Source: Mucor racemosus (taxonomy: Eukaryota > Mucoromycota > Mucoromycetes > Mucorales > Mucoraceae). Taken from it: DNA of 64,000 bases. Location: the NCBI GenBank assembly GCA_027405735.1, contig JAPEHQ010000003.1:310001-374000 (forward strand), given 5' to 3'. The stretch's first letter is position 1. Each line of letters begins with the position of its first letter. Below, in pieces: positions 18,943 through 49,129 of the stretch. A program made the translations under genes and the position numbers. The notes beneath the pieces were generated by a model. That model was given only the letters and a program-made list of their open reading frames with translations. It had not been told where the DNA came from and ran no database searches.

Positions 18943-19908
18943 TTTGTCGTTGAAAAATATACAAGAGATAAAGTAGTAAATCAATAAAGTGGGTACCAAA
19001 TATTTTATAATCATAAGGATCAACAAACAAGATATTGATATGTCGCCATTATGGAATAAACGAATTAAATCAAATTGATTGTTTTGATTATTTAATGGGC
19101 GATAGCAGGGCGTTATACCCATATCTGGAGCTGAGGATTTGAAATGTAATTGTTTGATAAGGGATTACAAAGAAATACATATATTTGAATGTGCAAATAA
19201 AATTTGAATGCATTATTTACAAATAATTTTTAACGTATTATAACCCAAAAATGAATTAAATTATTTATTAGATATTGAGCAAAAATTCATAAAATGTACC
19301 GTGTAATATATGCGAAAAATCATTCATAAAGTGTATATGATCAATTGATAAGCTTTATATCGTATAAAAAGTATCCAGTATATGACGCTGTCTACTATTC
19401 ATTTGAATATTATTAACTGCGAATTATCAGTGTATCAACTCATTCAAGAAACAAAGGTTTACGATTTCTAGTATTTTTATTGTATTAATTTGTTTATAGT
19501 TATTGCAATCAATATTGGAAATCTGATTTTTTTTTTAAAAAAAAAGGTACAGAGCATATTGCATAATGATTTTGATTATTCATATAGAGGACATTTACTT
19601 ATTAATTTCGGTAGTTGCCATCGTCATATATGCTGGTTTTGGCTGATTTAGAGTTATTTATAATTTAAAATGGTCTACTGAGCTCTGAGCCACAAAATCT
19701 ACTTGGAAAAGGTATGCGCTTTGATTCCTATAATTTAAGCAGCAAATCAATGATAGGCTAAAATTATATATCTGAATACTATTTTTGCAGTTTTGCAGTC
19801 TGATGGTATCCAAGTTCTCCAAATCACTATAAATGCCCTCATACTTTTTCAATTATTTTAAATCTTTAGAAATCTTTTGTAATAAAAACTTTAGCTGATT
19901 ATAATTGT
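18943..19908. other. Intergenic, no gene seen
   Basis: AT-rich DNA between the rhodanese start and the repeat island. Open frames such as 19658-19852 have no domain and no support from splice sites. No terminal repeats were noticed. Confidence 0.55.
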
Positions 19909-19916
19909 ATTTCTAC

Positions 19917-20271
19917 TAGCGTTCGCAAAATGACCGAGTCCAAGTGAGCGCAAGCAATTTCAGCAAGCATTTGCCGAGTCTAACATATTTGAAAGTTACT
20001 CAAGCAAGCCCAAGCCTAAGCAATGGCTCGCCGAGCAGTTTCATATCGAGCATTCTTAGTTTTGAAAGCAAGCAGATTTACACGTAAGCAAGCCTATTTC
20101 AATTTGAAGCAATTCGAGTAAGCAGACAAGCAAGCTTTCAATGTTTTCGTCGAACGCCAAGCAGGAAATTGCTAAAAAAAATTTAATCAAGCAAGCCAAA
20201 GCAAGTAATAACCTGAAAAAAGCGTAATTCAAGCGAGCCCAAGCATAGGGCTCTCTCTATTGCGATTGCTA
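19917..20271 (+). mobile_element. hAT-like MITE, copy A (355 bp, AAGC-rich)
   Basis: Non-autonomous DNA element bounded by terminal inverted repeats: TAGCGTTCGCAA on the left and TTGCGATTGCTA on the right. The interior is a monotonous AAGC/CAAGC-rich sequence with no ORF and a GAGCCC-7 nt-GGGCTC hairpin near the right end (20235-20253). It is about 94 % identical by hand alignment to copy B (34786-35162), which lies in opposite orientation. TIRs beginning TAGCG fit the YARNG start of hAT elements. The 8-bp flanks do not match each other (ATTTCTAC left, CCTGAACT right) because of the inversion described in the findings. Confidence 0.85.
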
Positions 20272-21752
20272 CCTGAACTATAAACTAAGCAAAATAGGCA
20301 ATATCTATTACTATGATAGAAACATAAAATTTTCTATTAAAAAAACCGTCTGTCATACCATACATTCGTTAAAAATTGCAAAAGTGAGCCCGCAGAGCGA
20401 TGCCGTAATTGAGTATAGCAAGATCGAACGACTAAGTCTCTTATACTACTATGGTATATATCTAAGTTTTAAATAAAAATGCGTTTTTTTAAACTTTTAT
20501 TATATTTAACCATGTACGGTCTGAAAATTCAGACTTTGTAGCGGACATTTTTGGGGACTCATTTTATCCTTACCAACACTCATGATTTTTATCAAAAAAC
20601 AGAAAAAACAAATTTTGATACCAAAATCAACGTTTAAATATACTACAATATGAGAGAAAATTGTAGACATAGCTAATACGCACTTTATAAAAGCTTAATA
20701 TTAAATGTTAAGTAATGAAACTTAGCATTTTTGGCCCAAAAACGGTTTTTTGATTAAAGGATTTTGATGTAATATTTTGTAGTAAAAATGTTTATTATTT
20801 TTTATTGAGCAAATAGAGCGCTAAATTCTGTATGTGTCTATATTTTTTGTTTTTATAATTGGTAGTATAATTAACTCTAGATTTGGAAAACCAGAAAAAA
20901 AAATTAAAAAAATGTCAAAATTGGTGATCTGGACAAGAATAATTTTTAAAATTAATATTCCGCTTTTAAGCTTTGTAAGTCTTAAAAATAAGAGATTTTA
21001 TAATACTTGAGAACTTTTTCAAGAATGTACGATGCTGTACCCACTTGATTTGAGTTGATTACTGTAAGTTTTTATACATGTTAATATTATGTGGTAGTCT
21101 ATTTGATAGTAATATAGTCTTACTTTATAATTATTGCGCTAGAGGTAATTTACATTTTGCTTTAATCTTACGTTTTCAATATCATCCATAAACATGGCCA
21201 ATCGCTGGAACCTGGAACCTATTGCAGCCTTTTTACCCTCGTTGTCCCAAGCCAATTTATTCAATGCTTTACCAGAACCAACCTAAGAAACTTAAAAATG
21301 GTTCCTCGGTATTTGCATTCAAATTACATAAATTAATTGCCTGGTTCCATCTACAACAGTAGTATCAAACATATCATCAGCCCGCCTTATGATAATGCTA
21401 ATTTAAAAACAGAAACATCTCATTGGCATTATTGTCACAAGCTATGAAAAGCTTGATTTTAATAATGTAGCAATTAAATAAAAAAACAGGATGATACTAA
21501 TCGCATATGATGAGTATTCAACATCTAGTTGAGTTTAATAAAGAATGCTTTTGAACCCTTTTGAAAATCTTGAAGCAAACACAACATCTTGGTCCTGTAA
21601 TTTCTATCCATCAAAATGTCGCGATTTCCACCACACAATGAATGTACCTTGTATCAATCTTGACCTCCTCGTTTTACATTGAGTATCAGTTTTTTATCAG
21701 TTGTTGTATTTTCTCTGATTCATTAATATTCAGTCATATTGAACGATAATTT
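20272..21752 (-). repeat. Tandem unit T1 (larger part), displaced by inversion
   Basis: About 1.48 kb homologous, in inverted orientation, to 35680-37160. It begins exactly at the right border of MITE copy A. Its missing end (about 104 bp) is found at 35163-35266, on the far side of MITE copy B. Read on the minus strand it includes a decayed coding segment (VGSGKALNKLAWDNEGKKAA and a preceding GT-AG intron of about 45 nt), discussed under unit T2. It has stops and frameshifts and no intact gene. Confidence 0.75.
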
Positions 21753-23679
21753 GTAGCATTGCCAAAAAAAGAGTAAATACTTTAAGAGTTTTCTACATAC
21801 CAAATTATGCGATTTAGTAGCAATGATTGCATTTAACTACGATGCTTTTTGAATCTATTATTGATGTTAATCGGAATAATTAATTAGTACTTTCATTCGA
21901 AAGTAAGCTTTGCTTTATACATTTACATTCACCCATTCGATAAATAACATTGCATTTAGTATCCATTATATCAAGCAACCTACTTCATCTTCTTGATTCG
22001 ATACATTTGACAATTAAATGCCAAAATTACACTTGAGCCGCCAGGTATCGCCACAAAACAATCTCGTACAGGTCGACGAAGTATCGCAATTTGCATTATC
22101 TTTTTGTGCTCACATAAATCTGAGCCCTCTCTCACATTCATAGATCGCTGCATAAACCATATCTCTATCTGTTCAATTTAGCTGAAATACATTGAACACC
22201 AACATTGTACTTGGTAAAACGCCTTGCTTTATTGCGAGTCAACACAACTAATTTAATGCTACTTTTGCATCAGCAGTTGAATCAGATAAATTTGAGATTA
22301 GACAACCCCTTTTAATAACTTTGCACGCCATGAGCTAATAATAGACCGTTATTATAGATACGCTAATCAAGGATTTCGAGTTAACTCTCCTCATGGACAA
22401 ACGAGGCTCGATTAGCAGTATAAACAAAATATTATTAAAATCAAATATAGCAATTGAATGAGCAAGAGATGATAAACCATGTAAATTAACATACTTGAAT
22501 TATTTCAAGCGTTTTGAACTGAATACGCCTTTACTTTTGACCTATAAAAATTGATTTATTAGTAAAACCAATTAACAAGTAATTATTATGGTGTACCTTT
22601 GATAGTTAGTAGTGGTATACAAGACAACACCTTGTTTTTCTCTTCTTGGCTGTTGGTCATTAAACAGCAACAAATATTTTTTAGAAACTAAATAGATTAA
22701 CAAGAGTTTATTCATTATTCAAATCAAATGAATACTATACATACTTCTATAATCACCAATTTTTCTGCAAGTTAATATCGACTTTAGGCCAAAAAAGCAT
22801 TGATTATTACGTAGATAGTGGAACAAACTGACTAAGTCTCCTCGGATGATTTTTTGTTCGAGAAAAATATTATAACGCATTTTAACATTAACAGTTAATA
22901 ATTTATTTTCAAATAAACAATAGGAAAAACATGTATTTGTACCTACTATTTGATTTCAGTTTATAAAAAAATATTGGTCTTTTTGTTGTTGTAATTTTGA
23001 ACATAAATAAAAGAGCTGAGGAAAGAGTGGCGACGAAAAACGAAAAATAATACTAAATCAGTCGACTTTGTGCGTTACAAACAGAAACTTACAAAGACAT
23101 AAATACTTTTAGTGTTGTCAAACAGGTTGTTATCGTTGTTCCCATTTGGTCCCGAAAAAAGAACATGTGCAGAACTCTTTCAAACCCCAAACTTCAAATT
23201 TATACATCTCGTCAATAAGGCAATTCTATTGAATCAGAGTAACTCACATCTGCTTTGAATCATTCATCAAATTATCTTTGTTAATAATTATATTATGATT
23301 GATATACTTTAGTGAATTGACTAAAAAACTTTGGCCTCATTGCTCTGCTCATCTAGACTGCCGGATCGGCACAAAATTTTTTATTATTATTCTGCCCATT
23401 GGTGCAGATCATTATGCCCATGGGAAGCATAGTTCGGCTGTAGTGATAGGTTAATATCAGATAACCAACTTGTTGTTCAAACATACGGAATGCACGATGA
23501 CCCATGGAAGCTGATATCAGAAATATTATCTGTAGAAGCTATTCATACCTACTATTATATCTACTGTAGATGTAGAGTGGCAGCTTACTTGCATCAGTAT
23601 TCATAAGGATCGTCTTAGCTTTTTAATTGATTTTAATAAAAGAGCATAGTGAGCTATAGATGCATTTTCGTGCTGATTT
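21753..23679. other. Gene-free repeat-island DNA
   Basis: AT-rich, no ORF of 60 codons or more on either strand, no recognisable protein fragment. It separates tandem unit T1 from R1 copy 1. It may be decayed transposon DNA, but I could not match it to anything else in the window. Confidence 0.5.
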
Positions 23680-25430
23680 TTTGACATATACACAGTAGGT
23701 TCTGAAAGTTGCTCTTTGAGTTGAGTGTGTTAAAGGCGTGCATTTACTATCATGTAAAGTTGGAAGTTATTAGGTTCAAAATTCGCCGAGATAGAGTTTT
23801 TGCTGTTGGTTTTTACTAGCGTTGGTGTCGAGCTGGGTTTTGCCAGCCAAATTTACTAGTATAATCTGGGCTCGACAGCATCCCTAGTTTTTACGGTTTT
23901 ACAAAATAGGATTATTCAGATGGTTTTAAAATGGTTTTCGAATGCCTTCATCCAATATTGAGTCAAATTATGTGAAATATTGAACAAAGATGTATCATCC
24001 CTCTATGGGCTATTGATATCTGTTCAAAAATAAAAGAGTTAATACCAGAATATAAATGCATTGGCTTAATATTGACCAAAAATGACCCAAAATCAATTGT
24101 AAAAAATTAAGCATCCAAATTGAATTGTTAATTTTTTGTATTCACAAGATAGATCCAATTGAAAACTATTTTTTTTTTGTTTCAGCGAAAAATGTTAATT
24201 TTTTGTCGAGATAATCAAAATAATAGTTCATATCACAGCTTAAAACCTATCATAACGGGGCCCCAAAACTGATTTGAAAAATGATTGAAAATGATTCAAA
24301 AAATCAAACTGCTTAATAACTCATGAACTGCAAAATAAGTAGACCTAAGGTATTAAATGTTTTTTGTAGAGTTTTAAATTCTGCATTCTTCTCAATAAAT
24401 TTCAGACAAAGACTTTAAATTAAATTTTGCGTAAAATGCAATTGAAATTTTGGAGGTTTTTTGGAGATACACATCATTGTTTATAAGCATATTCCAAAAA
24501 TTGTTTATGAAAATAATGTGCAACAAAATTATCTATCGATTGAGTTATTGCAAAACCTTCTAGCTGCACTTTTCGTAGAGAAGACAAGATTTTCATATTT
24601 TTTTTTAAATTCAGACTTTGGGATGAGGGTATACAAAGGAATAATTGAAGCTAGAAACGAAGGCGTCTCTTTGTACACATTTTTGAGGATATCTCCACGA
24701 AAAATCAATATTTTAAAAAAACTAAATTGGGTCTGAGAGAGCTCAATAGGGTTGATCACATGAATATAAAAAAAGATGCTGTTCAATTTAACGAAAATTT
24801 TGAAATCGACTACAAAAATGTCAAAAAAATGAAAAAAAAAATAAAAATGCTCGGGTTTTTTTCATAATTAAATATGCTATAGAGCGCATTAAAACAAGTA
24901 ACTTTTATTATTAAAACATAATAGTATGACTTAATGTTTTGTAGAGATATGAAGCCTCAAAATGTTTGATTTTTAGCAATGAAATACCTGTGAAAATTTG
25001 AAACATTAGTATTGAAAAATTAATACCAACTGCAAAAAATAGGGTATTTCCGGATACTTGTTTTTAGATTAAAGTTGGCCATCTCAGGTACATTGGCATA
25101 TAACTTTTTCTTGGTGTTGTTTAGTGAAAAACAAGGTAGAGCAAGGATGAAAAGTGAGACCCAGTTTTTAAAGAAAAAGCAGCAAACTTCACGTGTTTTC
25201 GAGTCTTTCGTGAGATATTGAATAAATTTAAGAATAGGTAGCATAATACGACTAATGCATATCCGTTTAGCAGCGTCTAAGATATATCCTAAAACGTGTT
25301 TTAGTTACAGAAAAGATGGCGCTTCGATTTTGATGAAAATTCAATTCAAATTTTGGTCGACCAGATACAAAAAAAAGTATGAAGTCCATTTTAATTCATG
25401 GAATGTAACTTGTTCTGAGTATATCAGAAT
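23680..25430 (+). repeat. R1 dispersed repeat, copy 1 (longest)
   Basis: Longest copy of a repeat present five times in this window (others at 33090-34605, 49130-50275, 50590-52135, 62525-63760). It contains the conserved reading frame at 24461-24736, starting MEIHIIVYKHIPKI and including GMRVYKG and RISPRKINIL, cut short by a frameshift compared with copy 3. On the other strand the 3' part keeps another open frame (25244-25020) with KKLYANVPEM and SIRKYPIF. A 70-bp element is nested at 23817-23886. Borders are where pairwise similarity fades and are approximate. No terminal inverted or direct repeats were found. Confidence 0.75.
23817..23886 (+). mobile_element. 70-bp hAT-like mini-element with 8-bp TSD
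   Basis: Flanked by a perfect direct repeat GTTTTTAC (23809-23816 and 23887-23894). Its ends are imperfect inverted repeats of about 17 bp: TAGCGTTGGTGTCGAGC and, read from the right, TAGGGATGCTGTCGAGC. The related R1 copy 4 has the empty site with a single GTTTTTAC at about 50732-50739. An 8-bp duplication and TAGNG ends fit the hAT superfamily. It is too short to encode anything. Confidence 0.85.
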
Positions 25431-26584
25431 GAGAATAAAGTTTGTCAACTATAGAGTGTAAGTTTAAGCACCATGAAAACTTATAAAATGAATATCTTTT
25501 TATTGATAAATTAGAAATAAAAGCGATTGATGGTTACGGATTGTCACTTTTTAGCTCCTACAGTAAAATTAAATAAATGAAAACCTATTTTTTATTATTA
25601 GAAGATGTTCCTAAAAGGAACTAATTTAATGAAGGCTACTCTAGTACCTACAATACCCCCATTCATTCTAATTCATCTGTATACAATCTATTATTTTGAT
25701 GTCATAAGCAAATAGACTTAGTAATTCTATTGGAGAGCATAACTTCATGTATCAGTGGTGTGTCGATCTGCAACCTGGAAATATAGCTGCCAAATTATGT
25801 TTCCAAACCTTCAAACAAAATTTATAAGACAGGTTTCTGTCTACTTTATAAAGCCAAAAAAGAAAAAGAAAAAAAAAATAAAGAAAAATCACAGTAAAAT
25901 GTGTATGTTGTACATTAATTCGATAACTGAAAATACTAAAATAAATCAATTTGATGGCAAAAAAAAAAACTCTTTTAAATCATTTTGTGTGGTAAGTCGA
26001 GAATCAAAATTATGATTTTTGCAAAATCAGTATATAAGATTTTCAAAGCCCATCAATATCACAAATCAGTCATTACAACAACAGCTAATATGCATAATAC
26101 CTCTTTGAGTGTTTTATTGATGAGTTATTTTGTTAGATTTTGAAATATATTTGATTTTTATGTATTCTCAATGCAACATAAATTAAATAAGCAATTAAAC
26201 AGGTTATGCAAATTAACCACCATTTACTAATACCAAAGGACGAGCTAATTCATTATGGTAATGCCATATATCATTATAAAAGAAGAAATTGTGTGCATAC
26301 CTGTATAAATATAGTCTTTTATCATATGCAACTCTTGATGAATGGTACACATGCACGTTGTACTAAGGTGATTTATGTGTCTTTTTACATTGGTGCTGTC
26401 GTCAATTGACGGGTTTAAACATCAATTATAAATGTTCCAGCCCGCCGAGGTACCGAAAATCAATAAGATTGTCAAAACTTAATTGGTGTGGCCTTAAAAG
26501 CGTTTCATTACAACCATAAAAACCCCTTTCCCTTTTTTTTCCCTTGTTTACATACTTTCATTATTTATACATATTTACAACAAC
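25431..26584. other. Intergenic, upstream of a membrane-protein gene
   Basis: AT-rich, with an A-rich low-complexity patch near 25855-25890. Open frames at 25755-26015 and 26206-26409 lack domain-like composition. The last ~150 bp, with a CCCCTTTCCC-T pyrimidine tract at about 26523-26545, are a plausible promoter/5' UTR of the next gene. Confidence 0.5.
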
Positions 26585-27041
26585 ATGACAGTAAGATCAA
26601 ACGACGCTGATTTCTCGTATCTTCTTACCGAGAGCATTTTATCCAAAACTCCAAACAGTAATTTACCATTTAAACAAGGAAATATCACATCGTCCGATTC
26701 ATTAAAAGGTGCACCATATTATAATAATGATAACATACAACAACAGCAAGCAACACCACGACTTGTTACGCCATTACCACATAATTCTATAGTAATTCAA
26801 CAAAAAGACTCGGATTTATCATTCAATAATTACATTGGAAATCATTTTAAAGAAGACGCACCTGTACTACTGGATCGCCTCTCTGCCGCATCGCCTATAC
26901 CATCTGCTGCATCACCTATACCATCTACTGCACCACTCAACCCAACTTTAAAGAAATCTGAATCTACCTTTTGGGCATATCTGTCAAATGATTTAGATGG
27001 TAGACCTCCTCCAATATCTTCAGATATTTCCATAAAACAAT

Positions 27042-27076
<35 letters not shown>

Positions 27077-27397
27077 AACACAAAGGACACAGAAAACCAA
27101 AACACGTGGCACGAATATGATTCAATTTTTGCTGGTCAAACATCGTCTTATACAACGGCTACACATTTCTTTTCAGCTGGCGCCTTTCTATTCTTATTTG
27201 GATTCATATGTCCTCCTTTATGGTGGGTTGGTTCATTTTGTCCAACACGTGTTGATGATGGATATCAAAAAAAGTATAATGTTGATATCAAAATGATTAA
27301 GAGATGGAGAACATTGAATAGATTCTTTTCTTTGGGATTCAGTACGTTATTAGTTATTGCAATCATCGTTTTGGCTGTGATTTACTCGAAAACATAG
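26585..27397 (+). CDS. Conserved-looking fungal two-helix membrane protein, function unknown
   Basis: Intronless gene of 270 residues. The N-terminal ~180 residues are polar and disordered (Ser/Pro/Asn/Gln-rich), with a duplicated ASPIPSAASPIPSTA motif and a run of about 12 Asn. The C-terminal ~85 residues hold two membrane segments: FFSAGAFLFLFGFICPPLWWVGSF and LGFSTLLVIAIIVLAVIY, linked by a basic loop (KMIKRWRTLNRF). The GFICPPLWWVGSF motif looks like a conserved fungal signature, but I cannot name a family. The start ATG follows a pyrimidine-rich leader. It lies inside the 14.5-kb inverted segment. Confidence 0.75.
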
Positions 27398-27619
27398 ACT
27401 TTTATTTTTACCCCTTTTTTTTTTTGTTTGTTTGCATTTGTACATTTATACCCTTTTATACATTTTTATATAAAAACTACATTTATATTCTTAACAAACC
27501 ATAAATTCATTAGAATATTTTTATTGATATGTCACGATAAGAAAAAGAGGAGAGGGCAAAACTATTAGTATTATTATTATTTAGTAAGAAGTAAGAGTAG
27601 CATTAAAGAATAATTTTAA

Positions 27620-28471
27620 TTATTCTTGTGCATGGATAATGTTGTTGATATTTCCCGCTGAAAGGCAAAAAAAAAAAATTCCCAAATTAGTTTTTCAATT
27701 AATTAACACATAAATTGCTTACATTCATCTTTAACATAATCCATTTTCATGTCATAGCACCATTTCCCATCAACAATAAATTTGTATTGAATACTAACAG
27801 TACGATCCAAACTATCCACATTTGCCTCAAAGACGTTATTGACAGGTGTCATTACAATTGATCCTTTAAATGATAAAAATTTAGATTAGATTCCCAGATT
27901 TAAAAGACGAGTCTGTTTCACAATATCACAAAAGATTTTAGGCCTCATCTACCATCTCTACCTTCCCTCCTCCCCTTCTTTTTCAATTGTCCTCAGGTAT
28001 ATATTCATCATTTAACAAAAATTTACCTTTCCAATGATCAAAATCACCCGTCAATACTACATGCTTTCCACCATAAGGCCATAAAAACTAGATTTAGACG
28101 GGGGGAAATGGAAATATCGTTAATATCAAACATTACCAATCAAAGATCCCTTCATTTACCGTTTTGGAACTACTCTTATTGTTATTGTTGATAGTGACAG
28201 CTTCATGAGTAACTTTTTCGGTTGGTAATGTCCACACAGGAACATCAATTGACTTGGTATTCTCGATTTTAATAAGGCCTTTTTGATAATATGAAGGATC
28301 TTTTTGCTGAGGCTCGGTGAAAAAACCTCGATTATTTCGTTCAACATTGGAGATGGGAATATATGCGAAATCCATCATTTTATTCACACCAAAGATGGAA
28401 TATTTGTGTGTTTTTTCTGGTGAGCGATGGTACAATTCGTTTCCTTTTCGGCTGTGAAGTTGAATTGGCAT
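27620..28471 (-). CDS. CBM48 / AMPK-beta-like glycogen-binding-domain protein
   Basis: Four exons. Exon 1 (28471 to about 28165) starts MPIQLHSRKGNELYHRSPE and is mostly disordered. Exon 2 begins FLWPYGGKHVVLTGDFDHW, the classical start of the AMPK1_CBM / CBM48 fold, followed in exon 3 by IQYKFIVDGKWCYDMKMDYVKDE, which supplies the second conserved Trp and the YKFIVDG strand. The short last exon ends GNINNIIHAQE. The domain binds glycogen or starch-like glucans, or serves as an interaction module as in yeast Mdg1/Crp1. At about 185-190 residues with only this domain, it is not the AMPK beta subunit itself, since the C-terminal ASC region is missing. Exon 1's donor GTAAAT at the KT codons was chosen because it alone keeps frame. 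Confidence 0.8.
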
Positions 28472-29392
28472 TTTTCTGTTCTATAAAAATAAGAAAGATA
28501 GAAGAAAGAGAGTGAAACGAAATCAGAATGGGAAAAAAAAGGATTTTTATTCTTGACTAAGCTTTTCTCTTTAGATTGTCTGGTCCGGATTCACTCTTTT
28601 TACATTTAGAGGTATTGTACATCTTTAGAGTTTTTATAATCAGCTGAATTGAAAGATTATGATCAAATAAACATTTTCTCATATAGTAAAACTCTTCTTT
28701 GATGTAACAATAATAAACTTTGGACGATTGCGAAAAAGTGGCCCGAGAACATTTGTGTAATGATTCCCAACCAAAAAGAGATTCCCCAAACTCGTACTAA
28801 AAGTGGTTCCGTGCATATCTCTTGGGAAGAAAATTCATCAGGAACAAGGTTCCTAAAATTTGCAACATGAGTAACTATGGCAACATCCCATTTCCTAGAT
28901 TAAGAAATATTTTCTTTTCTTTTATTATTAAAAATTTACATTACATTATGTGTCAAAGATTTATCAAACCAAAAGATATCACTTAGGTAGAACTAGGAAG
29001 TATAATACAATAAAGAAATCATTAGCCATCATTACATCGTAAGGGGGGCGATGGAAAGCTTAAATTACCCCACCTCCTGAATACTAATACTAATACAGAA
29101 TAGAACACTCAGCATATATCTGCGTTCCACGGTATACCGTAAACTAATGAGAGTATGAATTAAGATATGTTTATTTGTTGATTTTGTTACTTTCTAAACA
29201 GTGGCACATGCTATCCTGACTGTATACTACTGTAAGGACAGTTTCTCATCCGCAAATCTCATAGTGTCAAGAATTTATAAATGATTCAGCATCCAATTAT
29301 AAGCATTTAAGTGAAGTTACTTGGGAGCTACACTGGATTCAAATGAACTATCATTTTTTTTTCTAGTAAGAATATATTACATATTTGTGTTC
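28472..29392. other. Intergenic, no firm gene
   Basis: About 0.9 kb upstream of the CBM48 gene. AT-rich, no domain-bearing frame. Likely promoter for the minus-strand gene plus unassigned sequence. Confidence 0.5.
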
Positions 29393-29613
29393 ATGACTTC
29401 CTCAAGTGATAGATCATCATCACCAGCGAGGAGAAGAGGAGAAGGAGAAGCAAAATTATTGAAACACCGCTCATTTTCATATCGAGTTGAATCGAGGATT
29501 TCGAGGCATTTTGAAAACATTTTATTGCTTCAGGTAATTTGAAGTTTCAATCGTATTTTGTCCCAACCTGACAGGATTTTTTTAAGAAAACACAAATAAT
29601 AAAAACCGATTAA
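29393..29613 (+). CDS. Possible small basic protein (59 codons, two exons)
   Basis: Low-confidence model. An ATG opens MTSSSDRSSSPARRRGEG and continues through KHRSFSYRVESRISRHFENI to a consensus donor after CAG at about 29534. A 41-nt intron ending CTGACAG would join it in frame to a short exon ending in TAA at 29611-29613. The Ser/Arg-rich composition is protein-like and unlike flanking DNA. No family is recognised. It could equally be a chance frame. Confidence 0.25.
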
Positions 29614-29780
29614 TCAAATTAAATTTGTTTATTAGGTTGAATGCATTTAAAATTGGAATATTAAATTGAAGAAAGGTTAACACAAAAAATAAATTGGTGA
29701 GAGATAGGGGGAGTCATTGGTTATAAAGTTTACATAATCATCAGTTTAAAAGTACAAATCGAAATTAAAAAACGTAGGAA

Positions 29781-30370
29781 CTATTTTGCATGCTTAGGAA
29801 CATCACCAAATTTAATATTTCCCTCTTTTCCATCAATGTGTAATTCTAATTTATGTTATTATCAGGCTACAACGGAACAAACACTCTCAAAATAATACTT
29901 ACTAGGCGTACTTCCTCCTTCCTCTCTGACTGCCTGGACGCCATTTTGTCTTAATAACGAAGATACTTGATTAGCCAACTCAAGTTTCTACGGAATTAGA
30001 AGTTGAAATTAGCTAAATGACCTACAAACCATATATACACTAATGTAAACAACTTTACCTCTTCTAATACATCGCAGTTTGTTTCATTTTTGAATTGCAT
30101 GAATCTTGAATAGGTTTCTTTTCTGGCAGCTAATCATATAAGAAATAATGTTGGTCCTATTGTTCTTACTCATCTCACTCATCAAGTCTATAATTACCTT
30201 GAATAGCTTTGAGATCACCTAGAAAGATTGGGATTGACCGTTAGTCTTTTGAAATATGTAATAGAAATCTCTGCCACCTTGCGCGACATACCTGTGAAAA
30301 CTTCTCTTTGGGTTTTTAAAAGATTACGATAAGCAGCAATAGCAGCTTGCTTTGAAGGAGAAATAGACAT
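29781..30370 (-). CDS. Mitochondrial LYR-motif complex III assembly factor (Mzm1/LYRM7)
   Basis: Five short exons give about 100 residues: start MSISPSKQAAIAAYRNLLKT, where the AYRNLLK segment is the LYR-type motif, then ETYSRFMQFKNETN, ELANQVSSLLRQNGVQAV and a conserved C-terminus ending HIDGKEGNIKFGDVPKHAK. This matches Mzm1/LYRM7, a matrix chaperone that stabilises the Rieske iron-sulfur protein Rip1 before its insertion into the bc1 complex and helps recruit the Fe-S transfer machinery. Introns are small (about 50-85 nt); one exon is only about 6 codons (DLKAIQ). Length is normal for the family. Confidence 0.85.
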
Positions 30371-31512
30371 TATATATTTATAATAAATAAACGTTATCGT
30401 TGAAGAGAAATAATCTTCAAATATGTACGAAAAAGAAAAATAATAGAAAAAAAGCGAATAAAGTGACTGTCTGGATCAGTTTACGATAGACATTTAATGG
30501 CACCTTTGCAATGTAAAGACGTTGAAAGGATTGCTATTGTGTATTTAACAATAGCGGTTGAGTGTTGCGCAATGGGAATTTGTTAAGATTGATATAGTTT
30601 TAGAAAAAATTAGTTGCTAGGCAACAAAAACTTTAAATAAATTAGTTTGATCTCCTACTGTTATCATGTACATTTGGTTTTGCTATAGATTTATATTTCC
30701 ATGATTTACATGCTGTTTACGTAAGATAATTCAGGTAACAATACGATCCTATATGAGATGATCCTTCGAAAATTTTGCTAAAAAAAAGTTACACAATAGG
30801 TAAAACACTGTTCATGCTGTTTCACCTATCACAAGGAAATCCAAGTAAAACTATCCACTATTTATAGTAATTTAATAGTGGTAAAATACTGTTTCCATTG
30901 GCGATATTTAGTGAAACAGATATGTAGCTGATAAAAATACTGATGGTTAAATGGTTAGTTTGAACATTAAATGATTGGATGAAGCAATTTATTGAAGGGG
31001 GTAGCTAGTGAACCATTGAAAGTGTAATTGAATAAAGGAGGGCCAGAATTGATACATTTTATATGTAATTTTATGAAAAAAGGGGTCAGGGAATGTATCA
31101 TTATAAACGTGATAATGAGCATTGGGTGTTTAACAGAGAAAATTTAATATAAAAATTCAATTTTCTGTTTTTTTTTCACTAAGCATAGTTTTACTAAATG
31201 ACATTTACTAAGAAAAAGTTAATATAACACGTCCAATTACGGATGGAAATTACATAGTTTATAAGGAGTTAAATACATATATATATATATATATTCAAAC
31301 GATGGTAAAAGCCTACTTTTATGTATACATCCAGCACTTTGAGTGCCACATATTTCATTTTAATACTCAATATTGTAGGGATGATTTACTCGTATTTTAT
31401 GATGATGAAAAAAAAAAAAAAAAAAAGGTTAAAAATATTTCATCTAGTTTAGTCAACATTCTTTTTTCACTTTTTTTCTTTTAGATACATTTTTCAAACA
31501 TTCTTATCATCC
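30371..31512. other. Intergenic between divergent genes
   Basis: About 1.1 kb between the minus-strand Mzm1 start and the plus-strand tetraspan start. AT-rich with an (TA)n tract near 31278-31292 and an A18 run near 31410. Probably promoters for both genes. No other gene seen. Confidence 0.55.
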
Positions 31513-32815
31513 ATGACACGGGCTCGAAAAGAAAGTGCTTTTCATCTTGCATTATTAGTCCTAGTACAATGGATTAGTTTAGCTGTTGTCATTCTCAATG
31601 CAACAGCGTTGTACTTGCTTCGATATTCAAAACATTCAGGACTTGTAAATGTTTATTCCAGTCCAGCAGATTATATGCTGTTGATTTTGGGTTCTTTGTC
31701 TTTTGTCGGTTCGACATTGTATTTGTTTCTACATTTACATTTATACTTTCGAATTATCGATGATCATCCATTCACTCCTCCAAAGACAATGTCGGCAATC
31801 GAGGTTATTATGGCTGTCATTTCAATTGCATTATGGACAGTAGCAACATCTGTAATTTTAACACATTCACAAGGTAAAATCAAATCCATCATTTATATAC
31901 TTAGTATTTAATAGTTTATATATACAGAATCGACATCTCCATGTAGATTTACCAGTTCTCTATACACTCAAAACCATAGTGACATTTGCGAATTATTCGA
32001 TACAACTCTAATGCTTGGTAAATCAAGGGGGACTAAAATAGTAATTAAGGGGTATTTTGTTCGGTAGTAATAACTCAATCTGTATTATTTTAGCGTTCGC
32101 AGCTGTAGGTGGTTGGGTTCTAGTCTTGCTAGCCACTTTGTTTATTTTAATTCGCTCCCCTATTCCGCCGACCACTATCTTCACAATAGAAGCACCACCT
32201 CAACGATTTTCTCAACCTATGGTAGTATCACTTCCTGACGAAGCTTATCATCAACCAGGGCAACCACCAAGTCGACCATATTATATGGGACACTATAACA
32301 ATAATAACAAAATTAGGCCTGTTAGTGAAGATATTGATGCGCAACAGCAAATAATATTAGCAACGAATAACTCGCCTCAGCGTAACAAACGGAAAAGCAT
32401 GGTTCTACATAACAGCGGAAATGCGCCTGGAAGTTCAATTCAGGCTACCACATCGAGATTTACGATAGATCACGTACTGCTAGATGATGAAATCTGTGAT
32501 GATGGTGGTTTAGCATCAGCTACTGCATCTTCTAATATAAATAATTATTATTCATCTTATTATCAACCTCAGCATATGCCGTTGTCTTCTCCATCAAATA
32601 CAAATTCATCGGCTACTGATAATACAACATCAGCGTCATCGTATTATTCATCAAGGTGTCAAATACCTCAAGTCGAAAGTCAAAGAACTTTTCAAAGTCT
32701 GCCAACAATTGATTCGGTCTATACTGGTTTTCAGTCAATTCAGTTTGATTTACCTATCATTCAAGTGGGAATGTTGTCCCATATCGATGTCTCTTTCCTT
32801 CAGAAAAAATCTTGA
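31513..32815 (+). CDS. Four-helix (MARVEL-like) membrane protein with Gln/Ser-rich tail
   Basis: Three exons: exon 1 to about 31873, exon 2 about 31928-32018, exon 3 from about 32095 to the TGA. The first ~180 residues form four membrane segments: ALLVLVQWISLAVVILNATALYLL, YMLLILGSLSFVGSTLYLFLHL, VIMAVISIALWTVATSVIL and GWVLVLLATLFILI, with a short loop between helices 3 and 4 containing two Cys (SPCRFT, DICELF). This layout fits MARVEL-type fungal plasma-membrane proteins. About 230 cytoplasmic residues follow, rich in Ser, Gln, Asn and Pro. Exact function unknown. A frame opening at 32057 is only exon 3 read backwards into its intron. Confidence 0.7.
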
Positions 32816-33089
32816 GGAGAGACAGTAGAATCTCTATGTTCATTTTCTCTAATTAACATCTCAATTTGGCTATGCTATTACTATATATACATTTAGCCAA
32901 ACATGACATATTTTTTTATCTTCATAAATTGTAGTAAAGATATCATTAGCATTACTTCTCCCTAATACATATTAAATATTCATCTAAATACAAATAGTAC
33001 AAGCTTAGCTTTTTATAAGCAGTACACTAATCGAAATAAATACCTATTAGATTCAGATGACTGCCTTGAATGAAGGTATTTTTTGGAAA
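32816..33089. other. 3' flank of the tetraspan gene
   Basis: Short AT-rich spacer between the TGA at 32813-32815 and the fading border of R1 copy 2. No gene seen. Confidence 0.5.
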
Positions 33090-34605
33090 AATGTTTCGTT
33101 TCACATCCTGCTATGAATTTTGGTAGACATTATTCGTATAGATGAACACATTTGAGAAAATTTGAATTCCCATAGTTTTCAGTCTTCAAAATCGAAGCCT
33201 GCCCTCTTTTCTATGACTAACCTCACACTAAACATTTTTTAGGGTATGCCTTAGGCATTACTGTACAGATGTGAATTGGTCAAATTATGCTACCTATTCC
33301 TAAATTTATTCAATATCTCACAAAAGATTCAAAAACACATAAAATTCGCTGCTTTCTCTTTAAAAACTAGGTTTCACTTTTCATCCCTACTTTACTTTTT
33401 TTTTTTCACTAAATAGCATCAAGAAGAAATTATATGCCAATGTACCTGAGATGGTCAACTTTAATCTAAAAACAAGTATCCGGAAATATCCTATTTTTTG
33501 CAGTTGGTATTAATTTTTCAATGCTAATGTTTCAGATTTTCACAGGTATTTCATTGCTAAAAATCAAAAACTTTGAGGCTTCATATCTCTACAAAACATT
33601 AAGTTATACTATTACGTTCTAATAATAAAAGTTACTTGTTTTAACGCGCTCTATGACATATTGCAGTTTAAAATAATTCTGAGTATTTTTATTTTTTTTT
33701 TCATTTTTTTGATATTTTTGTACTCGATTTCAAAATTTTCGTTAAATTGAAAAGTATTTTTTTTTTTACATTCATGTCATCACCCTTATTGAGCTCTCTC
33801 GGACCCAATTTAGTTTTTTTCGAAATATTGAATTTTCGTGGAGATATCCTCAAAAACATGTACAAAAAGACATCTTCGCTTCTAGCTTCAGTTTTTCCCT
33901 TGTATACCCTCATCCCAAATTCTGAATTTGAAAAAAAATGACAAAAATCTTGTTTTCTCTGCAAAAAATGCAGCTAGAAGGCTTTGCAATAGCTCGATCG
34001 ATAGATCATTTTTTTGCGCATCATTTACATCGCTTATATTTAAAATATGCTTATAAAAAGTGATGTATATCTTCAAAAATCCCCAAAACTTTCAGCCGCA
34101 TTTTACGCAGAATTTTACGTAAAACATTTGTCTGTATTTTATTTTGATAGATGCAGAATCTAAAACTGTACAAAAATTATTTAATACGCTAGTTTTGAGA
34201 GTTATATGTAGATAACGATTATTTCCAATACAAATAAAATAAAGACTACAAGCGATTATATCACGGAGAACGTAGGGTCTTTATTATTAAGTTAAAAAAG
34301 GAAGCCAAGAGCCATCAGGTCCTGGATTCTAAAAGTATTTATACCATTTCAATTCCATTTGGATGTCAGGTTCAATATGGGATTGAAATGAGATTTAACA
34401 TAAATAATAGGCAAAAACCTACAAGTTTAACTTAATTCACAGTTCATGAGCATTTAGAATAATTTGTTTTTGAATCATTTTCTGTTCTATTTCACAAATC
34501 GATTTTAGAACTCAGTTGGCATAGGTTATAAGCTGTAGTATAAACTATTATCTTAATTATCTCCACGAAAAATTGATATTTTTTGCTGAAACAAAGAATA
34601 TAGAG
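33090..34605 (-). repeat. R1 dispersed repeat, copy 2 (inverted, interrupted by a solo LTR)
   Basis: Minus-strand copy of R1. The conserved frame is split by a frameshift into MKIYITFYKHILNIS (34076 downward) and GMRVYKGKTEARSED with RISPRKFNISKKTKLGPREL (33964 downward). A 228-bp solo LTR at 34196-34423 interrupts it; R1 similarity resumes at about 34440 (CAGTTCATGAGC) and continues to about 34605. The 3' part runs to about 33090 and still aligns with copy 1. Orientation is opposite to the other four copies, but it and copy 1 both lie inside the inverted segment. Confidence 0.75.
34196..34423. mobile_element. Solo LTR (228 bp) with 5-bp TSD AGTTT
   Basis: Starts TGAGAGTT and ends CCTACA (TG...CA), flanked by the 5-bp direct repeat AGTTT at 34191-34195 and 34424-34428. 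The insertion is absent from R1 copies 1, 3, 4 and 5, where the same position is continuous. No internal retrotransposon region is present, so this is a solo LTR left by LTR-LTR recombination. Superfamily not assigned. Confidence 0.8.
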
Positions 34606-34785
34606 TAGCATTTAATTTGCTCTACGACATATATGTTCGAAAAGCTATGCAAACACTACGAATTACTCGAAAAATCTTTCAAAATAAAATGTCAAAACGA
34701 TCAGTTTGTTACACCAGGGGATTATATCAATCTCAATACTAAAATATGTACTAAATCATTTAATAAAAATAAAAGCAGTAGAAAT

Positions 34786-35162
34786 TAGCGATCGCAATCA
34801 AGCTGTGCGAGCATAAGCAAGCGAGCGAGCCCTATGATTGGGCTCGCTTGAATTGCGCTTTTTTCAGGTTATTACTTGCTTTGGCTTGCTTGATTAAATT
34901 TTTTTAGCAATTTCCTCCTTGGCGCTCGACGAAAACATTGAAAGCGTGCTTGTCTGCTTGCTCGAATGGCTTCAAATTGAAATAGGCTTGCTTACGTGTA
35001 AATCTTCTTGCTTTCAAAACTGAGAATTCTCGATATGAAACTGCTCGACGAGCCGTTGCTTAGGCTTGTGCTTGCTTGAATAACTTTCAAATATATTAGA
35101 CTCGGCAAATGCTTGCTGAAATTGCTTGCGCTCATTTGGGCTCGGTCATTTTGTGAACGCTA
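34786..35162 (-). mobile_element. hAT-like MITE, copy B (377 bp, AAGC-rich)
   Basis: Inverted relative to copy A and about 94 % identical over the shared ~325 bp. Plus-strand ends are TAGCGATCGCAA on the left and GTGAACGCTA on the right. It carries a perfect hairpin (GCGAGCCC, 7-nt loop, GGGCTCGC at 34825-34847) and about 22 bp near its left end that copy A lacks. Flanks are GTAGAAAT (left) and AGTTCAGG (right): these are the reverse complements of the left and right flanks of copy A, respectively. No ORF. Confidence 0.85.
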
Positions 35163-35266
35163 AGTTCAGGCGCTATAATAATGCTTTTACATTGACTGAA
35201 GTGTGCAATTTAACAGGGTTTTAATTGCGCTAAATAATGTAAAGCCTTAAAAACCCTTTTCTACGT
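35163..35266 (+). repeat. Orphan end of tandem unit T1
   Basis: About 104 bp homologous to the end of unit T2 (up to 37271): GCTTTTACATTG, AATTGCGCTAAATAATGTAAAGCCTT and CTTTTCTACGT are shared. It starts at the right border of MITE B and, once the inversion is undone, is contiguous with 20272-21752. Confidence 0.75.
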
Positions 35267-35679
35267 GTGTTGTTTCTCACTTTTTGTTTTTATATTATCC
35301 CAAGAATATATTCATCGTTTGATAAGGCATATCAGACTATCAAGCTGATTCATCTACAACGCATAGAAACTGAAGTGATATTCAACAGATGCAGTTGCAT
35401 TGGAAAATTCAGCTCTTAGGGGTAGAAACACCTAGAATTATACTGGAAAACCAAAGTTCGCATTGGTCATCAAAGACAGACACCAACTTTCCAATCCACC
35501 AGTGTTAATTGCAGATATCAATTGTATAATCCTCTACCAATGCAAAATAGTAGTATGATATACTGTATCAATCAGTTCGACGATTATAATTAATAGTAAT
35601 AACAATAATAGGATCAAGTTTTTAAATTAATAACAAATAACTACTTACAGTATACTAGTAAACTGTAATTTAATACACT
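35267..35679. other. Spacer between tandem units
   Basis: About 410 bp with no gene and no similarity noticed to the rest of the island. In the restored ancestral order it would separate units T1 and T2. Confidence 0.45.
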
Positions 35680-37271
35680 ATCATTCAAAATGACTAAATA
35701 TTAATGAATCAGAGAAAATACAACTGGTAAAAAACTGATACTCAATATAAAACGAGGAAGTCAAGATTGATACAAAGTACATTCATTGTGTGGTGGAAAT
35801 CGCGACATTTTGATGGATAAAAATTACAGGACCAAGATGTTATGTTTGACTGCTTTAAGATTTTCAAAAGGGTTCAAAAAAAGCATTCTTCATTAAACGT
35901 AACTAGATGTTGAATACTCATCATAAGCGATTAGTATTATTCTGTCTTTTATTTAATTGTTGTATTATTAAAAGTCAAGCTTCTGGCTTTTCATAGCTTG
36001 TGACAATGCCAATGGGATGTTTCTGATTTTAAATTGACATTATCATAAGGGGGGCTGATGATATGTTTGATACTACTGTTGTAGATGGAACCAGTCAATT
36101 AATTTATGTAATTTGAATGCAAATACCGAGGAACCATTTTTAAGTTACTTAGGTTGGTTCTGGTAATAAAGCGTTGAATAAATTGGCTTGGGACAAAGAG
36201 GGTGGTAAAAAGGCGGCAATAGGTTCCAGGTTCCAGCGATGGACATGTTTATGTTTATGATGATATTGGAAACGTAAGATTGAAACTTAATGTAAATCAC
36301 CTATTACGCAATAATTATAACGCAAGACTATATTACCATCAAATAGACTACCACATAATATTAAAATATATAAAGATTTACAGTAATAAACTCAAATCAA
36401 GTGGGTACAGCATCGTACATTCTTGAAAAAATTCTGAAGTATTATAAAATCTCTTATTTTTAAGACTTACAAAGCTTATAAGCGGAATATTAATTTTAAA
36501 AATTATTCTTGTCCAGAGCATCAATTTTGACATTTTTTAATTTTTTTTTTTCTGATTTTGCAAATCTAGAGTTAATTATTCTACCAATTAAAAAAACAAA
36601 AATATAGACATATACAGAATTTAGCGCTCTATTTGCTCAATAAAAAATAATGAACATTTTTACTGCAAAATATAACATGAAAATCCTTTAATAAAAAAAC
36701 TTTTTTTGGGCCAAAAATGCTAATTTTCATTACTTAACATTTAATATTAGGCTTTTATAAAATGTATATTAGTTATGGCTACAATTTTCTCTCACAATAT
36801 AATATATTTAAACGTTGATTTTGGTATCAAAATTTGATTTTTCTGTTTTTTGATGAAAATTATGAGTGTTGGTAAGGATGAAATGAGCCCCGAAAATGTC
36901 CGCTACAAAGTCTGATTTTTCAGACCGCACATGGTTAAATATAAGAAAAGTTAAAATAAGAACGCTTTTTTATTTAAAATTTAGATATATACCATAGTAG
37001 TATAAGAGACTTAGCTATTCAATCTTGCTATGCTAAATTACGGCGTTGCTCTACGGGCTCGCTTTTGTAGTTTTTCAATGAAGCTATAATATGACAGATG
37101 GTTTTTCTGATAGAAAAATGTATGTTTCTATAATAACAGTTACTGCCTATTATTTTGTTTAGTTTGTGGTTTATGTGCTGTAATGCTGCTTTTACATTGG
37201 CTGAAATGTGCAATTTAGCAGGGTTTTAATTGCGCTAAATAATGTAAAGCCTTGAAAATCCTTTTCTACGT
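35680..37271 (+). repeat. Tandem unit T2 (about 1.59 kb), complete and uninterrupted
   Basis: Homologous to T1 (20272-21752 inverted plus 35163-35266). Near 36060-36290 it carries a decayed gene piece: a TTVVDGTSQL-like run, a GT-AG intron of about 45 nt, then NKLAWDKEG, KKAAIGS and, one frame away, DGHVYVYDDIGNVR. This looks like the C-terminal WD-repeat end of a dynein intermediate-chain-type protein (tentative). Frame breaks make it non-coding. The site where MITE B interrupts T1 is intact here (around 37165-37190). Confidence 0.65.
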
Positions 37272-37856: not shown

Positions 37857-38650
37857 TTAGAGTGTTGCAATTTTTTGATTTTTAGTCTTTTTCTTTTCGG
37901 ATGTTGCTGCATAGGCGTATTTTGCATATAATATCACTTCAACAATACCAATAAAAAACGATCCAGCTAATGCAGTTAATACTTGCTATGAAAATCAAAA
38001 ATATAAGTAATAAACTTCAAACAAAGATATGTAGACTCTTACCAAGCCAAGATCGCTGAATATGGATTGTGATACTTTATATACAGCAACATAGACAGCA
38101 ACCATCGAGAATAAAATATTGAAGATAGTTGCAATATGGCTTTTTACTTCTTTCAATTCATCTGGTTTGATACCTAGGTTGAATTTCTGGTCTTCAGATG
38201 TTACGACACTAGATACCATATTGTTGTAATTTCTCTCTTGTTGTTCAGCACGTAATTTGTCTAAATACGCCAGAAATTTGGGATCCTATTTGGTTATGCA
38301 TTGATTAAAAAAAGTTGACATTTAAGCTCTCAGCCCATATTAACATACTTGAGGGATAACCTCTTTGGGGGCAAAGTATAACCCGCTTCCAATAATTAAT
38401 TCATGAAAATGAATACCTTGATTACATAAAAACAAGTAAGTTATCAATACTCTATATTAATTGCATACATCATACCTAAATGTTTCGCAACGTATTCCAC
38501 CAAATCTGTGGATACAGGATAAGTCTCTTTAGACGAAAGATCTAATTTTGAAATCTTCTCGGCCTCTTCTCTATGTTTCTCGGAAAATTCTGGCTTCACC
38601 AAAGCTTCTTTGATGGAATTTTGTATCGTTTCAGTTAGACGTAAATCCAT
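37857..38650 (-). CDS. V-ATPase assembly factor, Vma12/Vph2 (TMEM199) family
   Basis: ER membrane protein that helps assemble the V0 sector of the vacuolar ATPase. Four exons. Exon 1 starts MDLRLTETIQNSIKEALVK. Exon 2 supplies HELIIGSGLYFAPKEVIPQ and exon 3 DPKFLAYLDKLRAEQQERNY, which is the family's conserved core: a basic-acidic region before the membrane part. Two membrane helices follow: IATIFNILFSMVAVYVAVY and, in exon 4, LTALAGSFFIGIVEVILYAKY. The tail is lysine-rich (EKKKTKNQK), suited to ER retention. Total about 215 residues, normal for the family. Introns are about 60-95 nt. Confidence 0.8.
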
Positions 38651-40458: not shown

Positions 40459-40510
40459 TTAAGATTGATGAAATTGTGGTAATTGAGGATTATTTTGCTG
40501 CTGCTGCTGC

Positions 40511-40595
<85 letters not shown>

Positions 40596-41340
40596 GAAAA
40601 ATGTGTTGTTGTTGTTGCAATAACTGTTGTTGCTGTTGCTGTAATAACTGCTGTTGCTGCTGCTGTAATTGCAGTTGTATTTGCTCCTCACGTCTTAATC
40701 TACCCCTCTTTAAAGGTGGCTGTTGTTCATGCCATGCATCCATATTCATTGATCTACCCATAAAAGATAGTTCAGTAGGCATCATTCGTCGTTTAAATCC
40801 CTCGGTTATGTTGTTGTTGTTGGTAGCTTGATCCCATACACCATCCATTGTGCGACCATTTGATAATGGCACAATATTATGAGTAAATGTAAATTGGGAA
40901 TGAGGATCAATTTGAAAAGGATTATTAATAAGTTTTTGTTGTAGTGGTAATTCGTCATTTTGATGTATTCTAGAGGAAGGAGTAACATTTTGTTGTTGTA
41001 CAGGAGGTTGTGTAGACGTAGTATTATTTGTGGGAGAAGCAACAGATGAGCCGCCCATTTCAGAAGTTAACTGATTATTTTTCTGACGAGCAAAAGATAA
41101 AACATCTTGTACAGGAATATAGCCGTTTTCGGGTTGAGCACTGATAAACTCGTATAAATCTTGCAAAGCTTGTTGATAACCAGCTGCGTATGACTTCCGG
41201 TTTTGAACTAAAGAATCTTTGTATAAAGTTGTAACTTTTAAAGCAGCAGCTTTGAAAGAGTCCATCAAAGCATTTTCTGTTGATTCGTAAGAATCCATAA
41301 TATTATTTTGTGGTTGATTTGATTGTGCTGTTCCTTCCAT
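40459..41340 (-). CDS. PolyQ protein with HAPSTR1/C16orf72-like domain
   Basis: Intronless, about 293 residues from the ATG at 41340. The N-terminal domain reads ESTENALMDSFKAAALKVTTLYKDSL, RKSYAAGYQQALQDLYEFI. This resembles the C16orf72/HAPSTR1 (TAPR1) domain, a stress-response partner of the HUWE1 ubiquitin ligase in animals. The middle is Asn/Gln/Pro-rich and includes a basic PPLKRGRLRREEQ segment that may be a nuclear localisation signal. The C-terminus is dominated by glutamine: several short runs and one uninterrupted run of 34 Gln, then NNPQLPQFHQS. The open frame extends to 41535, but the extra 65 residues are Phe/Ser-rich and look like 5' UTR. Domain naming is from memory of the motif. 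Confidence 0.65.
40495..40596 (-). repeat. (CAA/CAG)34 trinucleotide repeat, coding polyglutamine
   Basis: 102 bp of pure glutamine codons on the minus strand: mostly CAA, with CAG only near the 3' end. It is a candidate for length variation between strains. Confidence 0.9.
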
Positions 41341-42506
41341 AATATGAAAAAAGTAAGAAATTGAGAAAAAGAGAGGATAAAAGGGGGAGCCTTTTACTCT
41401 TAAAAAAAAGTAAAATAATGTTTGTAAGACTAACCAAAAGTTACAAATTTTTTGCACCTCTCTATGAAATAAAGAAAAAGGAAAAAAAACGCAGGGAATA
41501 GAGACTGCTTCAAGTTTCTTGTATACGCTTACCACCCGATTTGTTGGTTTATCTTGCAGTTCCGCACCAAATCTTGTTCAACTCATACTCATGGTGAGTA
41601 ACTTTTATGGTATTTGAATCTTTAAATTTGAGTGTCCTACTTGGAATTACACCCCCACATCTACTATCGAATGATTAAACGCCAACAGTAAGGCATCTGA
41701 CACTGCTGATATACTTGAATGTGAAACATGACTTTCATGTATCAAAACTTAAAGGCATTGTAGCGATATTTTTCGTTGGATAAGTATATATTATTTCAAT
41801 TACACAGATGATCATGTTCATGAATAATATTTGATCCCCTAAAGATATCGCGATTTTATAGTAAAAGCGGTTGAGAGAAGGCTACAATGATGATAAAAAG
41901 GCATTGGAGCTGAAATTATGACTATATTTTATAGAATTGTTTTATCTGAATTAGAGTATAAAGATATGCTTCCCAATTGATATATTATTCTTTGAACTGA
42001 TTTACAGGTATACATATTTTTAAATCAAATGAGCACGACTATTTTGCTTTGTCCATTGCATATCTTAAAAAATGCCATGACCTTCCATTAGCAGAAAAAT
42101 AACGGAATTCCTTCTCCTCCCACCTAAGCTTAAAAATAAGTGTATAAATGATTTCTATTGTTATGCTATTTTTTTTATAAGGGTATCCCACATTATAGAA
42201 AAAGCGCCATAATTGTTATATAATCGCCGGACACATGTCCGGTAGTCCGGTAATGGCAAAAATACCATAAAAAAAGGTACCATATTTTTATCCTCTTGGC
42301 GCAATGCAAAAGAATCCATCTTTTGAGAAGTAGCGAAAAAGAAAAGGCATTTCAACGCTAATTCGAAATAAACAAAATATAAACGGTTTTCAGACTTATT
42401 ATTAAATATATTAATGTTTTTATTTTGTAAAATTAAAAGTACAAGCTTTTGGAAAAATCCTTTAAATATGAGTCTAGGTAAATGTCCATGCCATTTATTT
42501 TGCTGT
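41341..42506. other. Intergenic with one small repeat
   Basis: Holds the presumed promoter/5' UTR of the polyQ gene, AT-rich DNA and, at 42184-42294, copy 2 of the CCGG-hairpin repeat. An open frame at 42161-42526 overlaps that repeat and has no domain; it is not called. Confidence 0.55.
42184..42294 (+). repeat. ~111-bp CCGG-hairpin dispersed repeat, copy 2
   Basis: Same orientation as copy 1 at 9902-10015. The core is a perfect palindrome CCGGACACATGTCCGG followed by another TCCGG. The right end (ACCATATTTTTATCCT) matches copy 1 exactly. Copy 2 lacks a few bases of the core seen in copy 1. Confidence 0.6.
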
Positions 42507-48843: not shown

Positions 48844-49129
48844 AAATTTTGTAATTTAATATTTTCCTTTCTCTTTTTTGTACTTTTTTCCCAAATGTGT
48901 TTCTTTTAAAAACTTGAAAATCACTTTACACACTCTTACACATACTCAAACAAAACAATTAATAAATTGTAAAATAAAAAAATATAATTATAAATCTTTG
49001 CGTTTACATTTTTAGCGTTGCGTTTGCTTTTAATGCGGGTGTTCATATCGCAGGAATCAAATACTTGATACCTTTTAACGGGTGCATTGGCTGAATTTAA
49101 ACCCCATGATTGAAGCATCCATTGTTCGT
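48844..49129. other. 3' flank of ATP2
   Basis: T-rich 3' UTR-like sequence (TTTTCCTTTCTCTTTTTTG near 48860) followed by AT-rich DNA up to R1 copy 3. A minus-strand open frame at 48936-49118 (with NAPVKRYQVFDSCDMNTRI) looks mildly protein-like but has no start context or family match. Confidence 0.5.

Follow-up and report, generated by a model that had tools for sequence, protein, structure and literature searches.

How do two copies of a short transposable element, lying in opposite orientation, come to be bordered by 8-bp sequences that match the flanks of the other copy and not their own? The question is raised by a stretch of 64,000 nucleotides of Mucor racemosus DNA (assembly GCA_027405735.1, contig JAPEHQ010000003.1, denoted C3, positions 310,001 to 374,000), called here the window, in whose numbering positions are given unless stated otherwise. 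Our preferred answer, to which we assign a probability of roughly 0.87, is that inverted copies of a hAT element inserted into two other repeats, Y and X, and that ectopic recombination between these copies then flipped the segment between them, as for Galileo in Drosophila.

Element A occupies 19917-20271 on the plus strand (355 bp), starting with TAGCGTTCGCAA and ending with TTGCGATTGCTA, and its inverted copy, element B, occupies 34786-35162 on the minus strand (377 bp). Both have the termini TAGCG...GCTA and they are 93-94% identical, with a divergence of about 6% and a length difference of 22 bp. As assembled, A is flanked by ATTTCTAC on the left (19909-19916, plus strand) and CCTGAACT on the right (20272-20279, minus strand), and B by GTAGAAAT on the left (34778-34785, minus strand) and AGTTCAGG on the right (35163-35170, plus strand). 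Direct reading shows GTAGAAAT to be the reverse complement of ATTTCTAC, and CCTGAACT that of AGTTCAGG. The element coordinates and all four mismatched 8-mers are as given in a preliminary description of the locus, and its proposal that inverting everything between the elements yields two perfect 8-bp duplications was reproduced by script: flipping 20272-34785 (14,514 bp) leaves A between two copies of ATTTCTAC and B between two copies of AGTTCAGG. In these terms ATTTCTAC and GTAGAAAT are the left half and the displaced right half of the duplication at site A, CCTGAACT and AGTTCAGG are the displaced left half and the right half of that at site B, and both duplications are intact. The segment has two copies of the element, in opposite orientation, at its breakpoints. 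We also considered, and rejected, a composite element with A and B as its ends, as neither the outer two nor the inner two flanks match each other.

Within the window CCTGAACT and AGTTCAGG are unique, and ATTTCTAC and GTAGAAAT each occur three times. Judged by the frequencies of 8-mers in the window itself, the probability that two of its 8-mers are identical at random is 7.3e-5, and that both pairs are so is 5.3e-9. Patterns of the element ends match the genome at 196 left and 166 right ends; 86 left and 88 right flanks of family members were compared with one another. Exact cross matches numbered three, namely A with B, B with A, and a C10 element with that at C1:956k, a pair whose right flanks also resemble each other over 20 bases. 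The match of A and B is the only reciprocal exact one, and no further reciprocal exact exchange was found among the 86 left and 88 right flanks surveyed. Eleven more pairings differ at one base, and the single reciprocal case among them (C13:292k with the C3:2438k element) was rejected as an exchanged pair, because each element has its own exact duplication and the targets are merely similar. For 17 copies with unmatched flanks, a search of about 400 bases on the opposite side found no displaced duplication. Unmatched flanks are widespread in the family, so that the evidence lies in the flanks of A and B matching reciprocally and not in their being mismatched. The preliminary description had named one finding that would speak against an inversion, that each 8-mer be common around other insertions by chance; this survey does not bear it out.

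A second line of evidence comes from the surroundings of the elements. A and B lie inside repeats, a circumstance that the preliminary description left unremarked, as it did their hAT identity, and one that makes an empty-site test possible. A interrupts a copy of repeat Y, the main part of which lies at 19797-19916 on the plus strand and is 97-99% identical to the 39 other places listed (766 first-look candidates, of which the best 40 were scored), and the displaced continuation of Y is found at 34765-34785, with ATTTCTACTGCTTTTATTTTT on the minus strand. B belongs likewise to a copy of repeat X, the large part of which, recognised by sequence matches, has been displaced by the inversion to 20272-22346 on the minus strand, and the terminal part of which remains outside the inversion at 35163-35347 on the plus strand. 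One genome copy matches the large part as far as 22346, and interior matches reach about 23.5 kb. Directly beyond lies a second copy, X2, with ends as matched at 35350-37271 on the plus strand, in which site B is unoccupied at about 37168-37175. The full-length copies of X that were scored are about 84-90% alike.

We cut 72 loci from the genome, added X2, and scored whether each match crosses the insertion sites with the element left out; among the 72, L009 overlaps L056, and neither contributes a crossing. In the restored order, 17 of the 18 Y matches that reach site A from the left cross it, with 11-15 of the 12-15 bases beyond identical, and 29 of 32 X matches cross site B (28 elsewhere and X2), with 9-13 of the next 15 bases identical, as is to be expected given that copies of X are only about 84-90% alike. 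In the assembled order there is one crossing in 18 at site A and none at site B. The single crossing, L076, was rejected as an empty site, being a place where Y lies beside X and where only 3 of 15 bases match past the junction. In a looser search the X matches that stop at site B were L078 and a place on C1 with an element of its own at that site. Copies of Y and X are therefore continuous only in the flipped-back order, and the flip is supported without recourse to the 8-bp match. That both elements had inserted before the flip, as first proposed in the preliminary description, is supported by the restored duplications together with these paralogous empty sites (17/18 for Y, 29/32 for X).

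The split copy of Y has no private differences over 133 positions compared with 16 other copies, and carries two variants, each common to one other copy. The inversion therefore came after a Y insertion that is itself apparently recent. Copies of X also occur within long inverted arms at L057, L075, L073 and L065 (1.5-2.2 kb long, 94-99.95% identical and 0.7-2.3 kb apart), an arrangement that is foldback-like.

The course of events would have been as follows. One non-autonomous hAT element would have inserted into a Y repeat, with ATTTCTAC as its target, and some 15 kb away another copy, oppositely oriented, would have entered an X repeat at the target AGTTCAGG. A non-allelic crossover between the inverted copies, made by host homologous recombination, would then have flipped the intervening 14,514 bp. 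Each target-site duplication would thereby have swapped one of its halves with the other, and both elements would have become chimeric. From position 108 onwards A groups with a C1 copy that borders X at the same site, which places the exchange point most probably within the first 107 bp of A.

This third copy, L009 (C1:1515078-1515434, or 4079-4435 of L056), has CCTGAACG as its right flank, followed by X at the same X position as at A. Its left flank, AATTCTAT, belongs to neither X nor Y, and a pattern search for a partner bearing AATTCTAT turned up no convincing candidate among six places with 2 mismatches, which include B itself. In further pattern searches the junction of X with the left of an element was found only at B, and that with the right at A, at the C1 copy and at one place with 3 mismatches. 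A and L009 share derived bases at positions 108, 115, 141 and 238 and a shortened right end, where B keeps the family state; at positions 29 and 68 it is L009 that agrees with the family, and A and B that deviate. Trees of 28 rows were built separately for the right and left parts of the element. In the right-part tree A and L009 group with support 100/99 and a grouping of A with B is rejected (p value of the approximately unbiased test, p-AU, 0.016), and in the left-part tree A and B group with unstarred support of 81/91. Taken together, these sequence comparisons suggest that A and B are chimeric.

Several points weigh against so reading them. In the left part a grouping of A with L009 is not rejected (p-AU 0.44). 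Position 68 is C in A and T in B and is thus not one state, the T at position 29 is present in one other copy, as is the T at position 108, and at position 23 A has T together with L009 and L010, against B. The shortened right end counts as one event, and its columns depend on the alignment. Chimerism is carried by few sites, and the split point was picked after the sites had been seen. With the end taken as one event, two sites that join A and B lie to the left of five that join A and L009, and by hand calculation an order this clean would arise by chance with a probability of about 0.1, for which reason we do not call chimerism proven. L009 could also be a later copy of A, and would then be useless as a marker of the copy resident in X. 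More broadly, the existence of the inversion in vivo and the presumed polarity by which the flipped-back order is ancestral rest on one assembled genome, in which the empty sites are paralogous.

A misassembly would produce much the same picture. If the segment in reality lay in the other orientation and the assembler had swapped arms inside the elements, a misjoin through this inverted repeat would exchange the duplications, and let continuity be restored, in just the same way, a possibility that the preliminary description had itself raised. We consider this unlikely, in that A and B are only 93-94% identical and their longest identical string is 50 nt, or 39 nt within positions 1-107 of A, the presumed interval of exchange. 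The window is without N, and the assembly comprises 53.2 Mb in 54 contigs. The same assembly separates inverted arms of 2,219 bp at 99.95% identity (L057) and the places of Y listed at 97-99% (39 besides that in the window), and as such near-identical sequences have been kept apart, the reads were probably far longer than a 377-bp element. Chance similarity of the flanks, with no inversion at all, might be entertained given the many family copies with unmatched flanks and the roughly 0.5 one-way exact matches to be expected in a survey of 86 by 88 flanks (7.3e-5 x ~7,500). This is scarcely credible for both pairs at once (p ~5e-9), and the continuity of the host repeats at both sites refutes it.

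The other explanations invoke transposase. In hybrid element insertion, one element present on two sister chromatids would form a hybrid that inserts at a second site and inverts the segment, leaving two identical copies with exchanged duplications. The parts of the Galileo study that treat this reaction describe its outcome as "strikingly similar" to that of ectopic recombination, except that the copies are identical (PMC2775673). The hAT transposase domains that such a reaction would need are present in the genome. Nevertheless, the copies should have been identical at the event, whereas about 6% divergence and 22 bp of length separate A from B, and the split Y copy, lacking private change, apparently allows little time for this: zero changes in 141 bases at 3% per lineage has a probability of 0.014, by hand calculation. 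If the two shared Y variants are counted as changes this becomes 0.20, which is no rejection. The tree of the right part also rejects A and B as sisters (p-AU 0.016), provided that L009 does not itself derive from A by later copying. On balance hybrid element insertion appears quite improbable. Reversed-ends or another alternative hAT transposition, as for maize Ac, would suit the family and the nearness of its copies. In the sections of PMC8225341 on such inversions, reversed-ends transposition generates a fresh duplication at a new target site and loses the fragment that separates the elements. Here two old duplications have been exchanged and the host repeats are continuous across both sites, and we dropped this very improbable route, which would leave one new duplication, not two exchanged old ones. 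We infer that the inversion arose by crossover rather than by a transposase reaction, and in the organism rather than in the assembly.

Between paired ends of the family spaced 6.4-6.6 kb apart, matches to PF05699, the hAT dimerisation domain of the transposase, were found in at least seven pairs among the ends listed, and these long transposase-bearing elements have exact 8-bp duplications in 7 of the 7 found among those ends. Of 58 short copies, 19 are bordered at their nominal ends by 8-bp duplications that are exact or differ at a single base (11/36 in one set and 8/22 in another); several of those without matching flanks are truncated, and the fragments L039 and L042 were excluded from the count. 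Because their termini are common to the transposase-bearing elements, which in turn have exact 8-bp duplications, A and B are, on sequence grounds, non-autonomous hAT elements, and a source of transposase for them is likely to be present in the same genome. Non-autonomous hAT elements, or hAT miniature inverted-repeat transposable elements (MITEs), are an established class. A and B resemble them in being short, in having no long open frame, and in their 8-bp duplications and shared termini; they are ordinary members of the class, of which the later recombination is the sole notable point.

Other features of the family were seen in passing. Among 70 PF05699 matches, 17 have the equal score of 68.2 and an open frame of 339 amino acids, and perhaps represent a second, recently amplified hAT family. 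At C24:593810-595362 (L016), inverted copies lie about 0.8 kb apart, each with a perfect 8-bp duplication, and these duplications are unexchanged. Left ends at C7:2311226, 2314635, 2318045 and 2321454, spaced by 3.41 kb and bearing the same variant end TGTCCGAG, resemble a tandem array. A repeat W, ending in TTACCAAAAC, forms the left flank directly before the element in nine copies (L023, L027, L030, L034, L035, C3:691k, C2:2513k, C3:590k and C16:319k), and the right flanks are all different in the eight that were read, as if W and the element had moved as a unit. Such a putative unit would end at the right end of the element.

The inverted segment (20272-34785), delimited by the scripted flip and the empty-site test, contains a dispersed repeat D at 24104-25354 on the plus strand, with further copies at 33157-34223 (minus strand), 49094-50272, 50962-52125 and 62716-63753. 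The four gene models that the preliminary description placed in the segment could be recognised only as open frames, near 26.5-27.4, 28.1-28.5, 30.2-30.5 and 31.5-32.8 kb. The open frame at 26585-27397 (plus strand) has mucoralean fungi as its named relatives among the 27 matches listed, and a two-exon gene with an inferred splice at 31453-32815 (plus strand) is 85% identical to a Mucor circinelloides protein. Clear Pfam matches among ten open frames scanned were to Vma12 (37995-38285, minus strand) and agmatinase (42507-43736, with 89% identity to proteins under the names Mucor circinelloides and M. fragilis), neither of which is cut; both breakpoints are located in repeats, and we see no reason to propose a functional role for the flip. 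Relatives with these genes include Mucor circinelloides, Parasitella parasitica, Pilobolus umbonatus and Mycotypha africana. In the last of these, the agmatinase and the genes at 26.5 and 31.5 kb are each listed on a contig of 1,328,884 bases, a comparison that concerns linkage only, gene order being unreadable from the locus names. Elsewhere in the window, a long TTG/CTG trinucleotide run at 40495-40680 overlaps an open frame on the minus strand (40459-41535).

The locus thus presents a well-supported inversion by a known mechanism, a new example and a hAT case in a mucoralean fungus. The pair of inverted elements stays in place after the event, and repeated flipping would therefore be possible. 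We hold it to be conceivable but unlikely that the segment is still flipping reversibly, with both orientations in the strain or species and the enclosed genes changing neighbours repeatedly; if true, this would be a transposon-built reversible inversion in a mucoralean fungus. The locus is a place for direct comparison of two strains. A single assembled genome suffices for recognising an inversion and its breakpoints where the elements are embedded in other repeats, as the surrounding repeats act as internal empty sites.

Among known systems, the maize Ac/Ds inversions share with this locus the hAT superfamily, 8-bp duplications and elements at the breakpoints, as far as the relevant sections of their description extend (PMC8225341). 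They are in contrast characterised there by a new duplication and a transposase reaction, where here old duplications have been exchanged. The likeness to Galileo is closer. According to those portions of PMC2775673 that concern the breakpoints, Galileo too has inverted copies at both breakpoints, exchanged target-site duplications, chimeric copies (a strong case for 2z3, and only a suggestive one here) and no gain or loss of flanking DNA seen. Galileo is by the same account an element of the P superfamily with 7-bp duplications, for which uninverted chromosomes were sequenced, in contrast to the present hAT elements with 8-bp duplications around a 14.5-kb segment in a single fungal genome, in which paralogous repeats supply the empty sites. 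A hAT case in a Mucor-like fungus is in this way added to a mechanism documented in Drosophila.

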